This document shows, piece by piece, positions 552 to 965 of a DNA stretch of 64,000 nt (the stretch's first letter is position 1; every line of letters starts with the position of its first letter). The notes below the pieces were generated by a model. It saw only the letters and a program-made list of their open reading frames with translations. It ran no database searches and was not told the origin of the DNA. The position numbers were made by a program, and so were the translations under genes. The stretch spans positions 1,496,242 to 1,560,241 of the forward strand of contig NZ_SMFX01000001.1 of assembly GCF_004339085.1 (NCBI RefSeq). The letters are read 5' to 3'. The DNA is from Thiogranum longum (lineage in GTDB: Bacteria > Pseudomonadota > Gammaproteobacteria > DSM-19610).

Positions 552-965
552 ATGTCAAGGAAAGCAGCGATCAACCCACTATCAGTCGCCCTCGGCACTG
601 TATTCACCGTGTCCCTGGCAAACAGCACCATCACCAGTGCCGCTGAAAACCCGTTCAGCATGCAGCCGGTAAATAGCGGTTACATGGTACTGGCAGAAGG
701 CAAGTGCGGTGAAGGAAAATGCGGCGCAGGAAAAGGAAAAGGCCGTGAAGGCATGTGCGGCATGGAGCGCATGGATACTGATGGTGATGGAAAAGTCAGC
801 AAGGATGAATTCATGAAAGGGCACGAAGCCAAGTTTGAACAAATCGATCAAAACAGTGATGGTGTAATCGATAAAGCCGAACATGATGCTCACATGAAGA
901 AAATGATGGGCTTCATGAAAGAGGGAAAATGCGGCGAAGGCAAATGCGGTGGTTCAAAGAAATAA
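552..965 (+). CDS. EF-hand protein with EGKCG repeats (HvfA/oxazolin-type copper RiPP precursor-like)
   Basis: This 137-residue exported protein has a signal-like N-terminus (1-31) and the segment ENPFSMQPVNSGYMV (32-46), then EGKCGEGKCG (49-58) and a degenerate EGMCG (66-70). Two canonical EF-hand loops follow at 75-86 (DTDGDGKVSKDE) and 99-110 (DQNSDGVIDKAE), and a second EGKCGEGKCG pair lies at 124-133. The leader and EGKCG motifs match what I know of HvfA-type precursors, in which an MNIO (DUF692) enzyme turns EGKCG cysteines into copper-binding oxazolone/thioamide pairs. Paired Ca-binding EF-hands between two such clusters is unusual. No DUF692 enzyme or HvfC-like partner is adjacent: trhA lies on one side and ychJ on the other. 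An AGGAGA ribosome binding site precedes the ATG. Signal, motifs and EF-hands are seen; modification and copper binding are inferred. Confidence 0.8.
   Translation: MSRKAAINPLSVALGTVFTVSLANSTITSAAENPFSMQPVNSGYMVLAEGKCGEGKCGAGKGKGREGMCGMERMDTDGDGKVSKDEFMKGHEAKFEQIDQNSDGVIDKAEHDAHMKKMMGFMKEGKCGEGKCGGSKK

Follow-up and report, generated by a model that had tools for sequence, protein, structure and literature searches.

Cysteine-containing EGKCG motifs characterize precursors of the HvfA type, which MNIO (DUF692) enzymes such as HvfB, together with HvfC, modify to give groups that bind copper. The modification, taken in the original prediction for the gene described here to be an oxazolone/thioamide pair, has been reassigned to a 5-thiooxazole, with a change of -4 Da per cysteine (PMC13097082, PMC13419390). 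Modification of HvfA is nearly abolished once the signal peptide is removed, and the signal peptide is reported to serve as the leader (PMC13419390). For the FonBC enzymes, two tandem EGKCG repeats are sufficient as a substrate and one is not (PMC13097082).

Fusions of EGKCG motifs with EF-hands are already known, including loci that lack an adjacent DUF692 gene (PMC12452194; for EfhP, PMC11559002 and PMC4053335), and the chimaera analysed below is not the first of its class. EfhP binds Ca2+ and undergoes a conformational change (PMC9132961). Here we examine one such gene in a 64,000-nucleotide stretch of the Thiogranum longum genome, hereafter called the window.

A chimaeric precursor with cysteine motifs on both sides of an EF-hand pair

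Residue-level reading of the open reading frame (ORF) confirms that the encoded protein carries four EGKCG motifs and one EGMCG motif around two EF-hands, following a leader that contains AENPFSMQPVNSGYMV (Table 1). The protein has two EGKCGEGKCG units, each with the pair of tandem repeats that suffices for FonBC. Judged from its leader, the protein would be exported to the periplasm.

Table 1. Features of the chimaera gene, in window positions
Feature	Positions	Strand	Residues	Basis
EGKCG/EF-hand chimaeric RiPP precursor	552-965	+	137 amino acids	ORF; HvfA-family domain and EF-hand pair; orthologues in congeners
Sec-type signal peptide and conserved AENPFxM...SGYMV segment, probable leader for the HvfB/HvfC pair	552-695	+	1-48	Leader-only search
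EGKCGEGKCG, N-terminal double motif (C52, C57)	696-725	+	49-53 and 54-58	Direct reading
EGMCG (C69), motif adjoining EF-hand 1	747-761	+	66-70	C69 invariant in 8 orthologues
EF-hand loop 1, DTDGDGKVSKDE	774-809	+	75-86	Pfam PF13202/PF00036
EF-hand loop 2, DQNSDGVIDKAE	846-881	+	99-110	Pfam
EGKCGEGKCG, C-terminal double motif (C127, C132)	921-950	+	124-128 and 129-133	Direct reading

Both Pfam models, EF-hand_5 and EF-hand_1, score above their gathering thresholds, and PF13202 reaches 42.3 bits against a gathering score of 25.9 over two stretches of the protein. The earlier assignment to the HvfA/EGKCG class was correct, in that the protein scores 28.9 bits against a cut-off of 19.5 bits with the NCBIfam model NF050137 (KCGExKCG_twice, HvfA family). 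It falls below the HvfA equivalog NF050188 (31.9 against 95 bits), as does the HvfA encoded by the same genome (38.2 bits). An AlphaFold model has an overall pLDDT of 56.5 and consists of an ordered EF-hand pair (about 70-80) flanked by disordered tails. A fold search of the PDB with this model gave no significant match.

Orthologues with 60-80% identity are found in seven congeners. C57, C69 and the EF-hand ligands are invariant across eight close orthologues, and this conservation indicates that neither the ORF nor its motif layout is a product of chance. The key EF-hand residues are also invariant in 31 chimaeras (D75, D79, G80 and E86 of loop 1; D99, D103, G104 and E110 of loop 2). The outer cysteines drift among congeners, with C52, C127 and C132 each lost somewhere among the eight orthologues.

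Directly 3′ of the chimaera gene lies a conserved structured element of about 180 nucleotides (positions 967-1142), which is best read on the minus strand and is bounded by a 20-nucleotide terminal inverted repeat. The element is present once in the genome and once in each of nine congeners, at 81-92% identity and at differing locations, and a tenth matches it in part. Its predicted fold is much more stable than those of shuffled sequences (z = -5.55), and at 8 of the 52 consensus pairs both partners change. It matches 6S RNA weakly over the full length (26 bits against a gathering score of 46.4) and is a candidate for a new or second 6S-like RNA; the true 6S gene of the genome is located elsewhere. 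We considered whether the inverted repeat is the terminator of the chimaera gene or another part of its system and rejected this idea. Congeners carry the repeat at sites distant from the chimaera gene, and it also occurs where a genome yielded no chimaera, so that the element is separate from the chimaera.

A complete hvf cluster lies 558 kb away

No MNIO or HvfC gene is present in the 8 kb upstream or the several kilobases downstream of the chimaera gene, and no DoxX gene occurs in the flanking kilobases. This search of the flanks bears out the original observation that neither the enzyme nor its partner adjoins the gene. In congeners there is likewise no conserved neighbour or partner gene, and synteny is gone beyond the closest relatives.

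The description of the gene as an orphan holds for its position only, because the genome, a single contig of 2.92 Mb, encodes hvfABCX. Its sole PF05114 (MNIO) gene, at C1:2055739, belongs to a complete and compact hvfA-hvfB-hvfC-hvfX cluster (L009, 5164-8013) that is 558 kb from the chimaera. Three proteins of the cluster exceed their NCBIfam equivalog cut-offs: the MNIO as HvfB (454 against 360 bits), its partner as HvfC (340 against 142 bits) and the third protein as HvfX (239 against 80 bits). The HvfA of the cluster is rich in EGKCG motifs. The genome-wide search for DUF692 and HvfC-like genes that the original prediction proposed thus yields both, and the lack of a DUF692 enzyme that would have spoken against that prediction is not observed.

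Elsewhere, chimaera genes are found directly before HvfB and HvfC genes, as in Xanthomonadales, Nitrosomonas, an Ectothiorhodospiraceae metagenome-assembled genome and some Pseudomonas. They stand alone in the genus of the window and in many genomes of the P. fluorescens group. Within the genus, each of the 11 genomes with a chimaera has an MNIO gene, as do all 22 tested outside the genus, one of these in the form of a contig-edge fragment only. Inside the genus this co-occurrence carries little weight, because in the order 19 of 20 genomes encode an MNIO whether or not they have the chimaera. The separation of enzyme and precursor recurs naturally in several Pseudomonas genomes with stand-alone chimaeras. 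In these (L122, L125, L128 and L130), the MNIO-HvfC pairs examined have no recognizable EGKCG precursor alongside and the EGKCG proteins are encoded elsewhere. Some stand-alone-chimaera Pseudomonas genomes also encode another short EGKCG peptide, and additional MNIOs are present in some, so that the pairing of enzyme with chimaera there is itself inferred.

The leader resembles that of the HvfA encoded by the same genome

The first 48 residues of the chimaera, which include no EGKCG motif, were compared with 9,627 ORFs from the collected loci. Every match was an HvfA-type or chimaeric precursor, or came from a locus gathered for such similarity. The HvfA of the same genome was matched with an E value of 5.6e-10. 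The two leaders are 46% identical, with a score of 119, whereas comparisons with the leaders of EF-hand chimaeras from Xanthomonadales and Pseudomonas score only 22-57.

A similar relationship is evident in Pseudomonas, in which the leader of an EF-hand chimaera (L088) is 71% identical to that of a two-motif precursor without EF-hands that is encoded beside an MNIO gene (L134). Thus, leader sequences track lineage rather than domain layout, as expected if the local enzyme pair reads the leader. The L134 gene (1753-2031, minus strand), situated directly before the MNIO gene, encodes a precursor that is very short, lacks an EF-hand and contains just one EGKCGEGKCG unit.

The chimaera gene is probably regulated separately from hvfA

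A bipartite motif, GAAACTTT-N13-GGTCGTA, is conserved upstream of hvfA in the genus and seems to resemble an ECF-sigma promoter. The genome has one exact copy, about 130 nucleotides upstream of hvfA (about 5113-5140 of L009; G000:C1:2055112-2055139). Among the hvfA regions of congeners, 11 of 12 match the motif at 12-15 of its 15 positions, and the twelfth is cut short by the end of a contig. The motif is absent upstream of the chimaera in all eight orthologues, where the best sites match at 8-10 of 15 positions and the mean for shuffled sequences is about 9.6. Co-regulation with the hvf genes was rejected on this basis, and the absence of the motif makes it probable that the chimaera is regulated separately from hvfA. 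A consensus scan revealed no sigma-70-like promoter.

A probable second substrate for a single enzyme pair

Together, these observations lead us to propose that the chimaera, encoded on its own, is probably another substrate, besides HvfA, for the only HvfB (MNIO)/HvfC (RRE partner) pair of the genome, and that its product would buffer copper in the periplasm and have a core that binds calcium. In this model, HvfC and HvfB in the cytoplasm would bind the signal peptide and AENPFxM..SGYMV segment of the precursor, as suggested by the shared leader. HvfB would then oxidize EGKCG cysteines to 5-thiooxazoles, and the published chemistry of HvfA and FonA suggests that the tandem EGKCGEGKCG units would react most readily. 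The protein would next be exported by the Sec pathway, as its signal peptide predicts. In the periplasm, the flexible modified tails would bind copper and the folded EF-hand pair would bind calcium, so that the product would act as a copper buffer whose calcium-binding core may be calcium-sensing or stabilizing. The lack of an hvfA promoter-like motif suggests that the chimaera is probably expressed under conditions other than those that favour hvfA. Points against this proposal are the missing hvfA motif, which leaves co-expression with HvfBC hypothetical, the low overall confidence of the AlphaFold model and the drift in cysteine number among congeners, a poor fit to a strict copper stoichiometry. 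The coupling of two metals in a single product, raised in the original prediction, is a plausible hypothesis.

Spacing between cysteine and calcium loop

Searches yielded 55 distinct EGKCG/EF-hand chimaeras. Cysteines flank the EF-hand pair on both sides in 38 of them, and this sandwich layout is common outside Pseudomonas; none of the 55 has a cysteine inside the pair. The chimaeras differ freely in motif number, in EF-hand spacing (24-29) and in how far away the C-terminal motifs lie. The nearest upstream cysteine precedes EF-hand loop 1 by 6 residues in 35 chimaeras and by 9 residues in 16 (the Pseudomonas group). On the question, raised with the original prediction, of whether motif number and spacing are conserved, the number of motifs and the distance between EF-hands vary, and the cysteine-to-loop-1 spacing is fixed in this way. 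Such a fixed spacing could reflect coupling of a modified cysteine with calcium loop 1, or it could reflect only a minimal first helix together with shared ancestry.

If coupling is involved, one HvfBC pair might mature two seemingly separately regulated precursors, HvfA as a bulk copper binder and the chimaera as a calcium binder. The thiooxazole nearest EF-hand 1, held at fixed spacing, would then allow calcium occupancy to tune copper binding or release, making the product a two-metal sensor or buffer. We regard this extension as tentative and rather unlikely.

The same spacing, which suggests that both sites are read together, can be taken to favour a role for the HvfBC-modified chimaera mainly in calcium-controlled signalling, in which 5-thiooxazoles report copper or redox state to a periplasmic partner and do not store copper. 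This possibility, which shares its maturation step with the copper-buffer proposal, would parallel the Ca2+-dependent control of iron-uptake genes by EfhP (PMC11559002). However, congeners have neither a partner gene nor a conserved neighbourhood, and the spacing may simply be the shortest first EF-hand helix possible or a trace of shared ancestry. On balance, we find a signalling role unlikely.

A third possibility dispenses with modification. The drift of motif residues (EGMCG, EGRCG and some lost cysteines) while EF-hand residues stay invariant, along with the distance from hvfBC and the lack of an hvfA promoter-like motif, would fit an EfhP-like protein that senses or buffers Ca2+ in the periplasm. 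The cysteines would no longer be modified in this genus, and EGKCG motifs would be remnants or plain-thiol sites for thiophilic metals. EfhP itself has been investigated for its role in sensing Ca2+ (PMC9132961, PMC11559002). Yet C57 and C69 are invariant across the eight orthologues, an HvfA-type leader is retained and the genome has an intact HvfBCX set. Moreover, FonBC tolerated a Lys-to-Arg change at motif position 3 (PMC13097082). These observations make the loss of modification unlikely.

Lanmodulins carry a proline at position 2 of the EF-hand loop. A lanmodulin-like protein whose EF-hand pair takes up rare-earth ions is very improbable and was rejected. In its favour, a sequence search of the PDB ranks LanM first (E about 1e-7), the fold search also lists it (8fns), and its EF-hand spacing is similarly short to the 24 residues between the loops here. 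However, the fold match lacks significance (E 0.23), the NCBIfam LanM model scores 25.9 against a cut-off of 135 bits, only two EF-hands are present, and neither DTDGDGKVSKDE nor DQNSDGVIDKAE has the proline. In addition, no protein of the genome scores above the family cut-off for PQQ-dependent alcohol dehydrogenases.

The proposal of a second HvfBC substrate makes this locus well suited to the question of whether an MNIO pair can act on substrates from distant genes by means of a shared signal-peptide leader. Stand-alone and operon-encoded forms exist side by side across Gammaproteobacteria, which opens to in vitro testing the rule that a leader resembles those of the lineage's own precursors and not those of other EF-hand proteins. 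The case also bears on crosstalk between calcium and copper binding in EfhP-like proteins, and EfhP affects virulence traits of P. aeruginosa.

Comparison with known systems

HvfA (oxazolin) and fontiphorin, the EGKCG captophorins, share EGKCG motifs and a Sec signal peptide with the window protein, whose leader and that of its own genome's HvfA are homologous. In contrast to the window protein, HvfA and FonA adjoin their MNIO, and EF-hands do not feature in their descriptions. The window protein differs from the HvfA equivalog in scoring under its cut-off and in being encoded outside the hvfABC(X) operon.

EfhP (PA4107) of Pseudomonas aeruginosa has an EF-hand pair and four EGKCG repeats (PMC11559002) and is predicted to be periplasmic. 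The window protein has the same combination of EF-hand pair and EGKCG repeats and is homologous to the Pseudomonas chimaeras. P. fluorescens homologues of EfhP also lack adjacent DUF692 and DUF2063 genes, whereas in P. aeruginosa the gene is apparently operonic with PA4106 (DUF692) and PA4105 (DUF2063) (PMC4053335). The Pseudomonas chimaeras examined differ from the window protein in that C-terminal motifs are mostly missing and the cysteine-to-loop spacing is 9 rather than 6.

The closest described class is the Buf_EGKCG|EF-hand_5 chimaera (PMC12452194), which begins with a signal peptide or a hydrophobic stretch, has two EF-hand_5 motifs and carries EGKCG motifs but no 17-residue repeats, and for which maturation by MNIO and DUF2063 proteins is expected. 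The window protein belongs with it by its EGKCG repeats, two EF-hand_5 domains, precursor-class leader and the MNIO and DUF2063 partner, non-adjacent, of its genome. Unlike members of that class as described, in which the EF-hands are C-terminal to the EGKCG part, it has EGKCG motifs on both sides of the pair, and its gene stands alone in a genome that also encodes a classical HvfA. Relative to these systems, the present analysis adds the sandwich layout, the constant distance between cysteine and EF-hand loop 1, the evidence from the leader and the complete hvf cluster at a distance.
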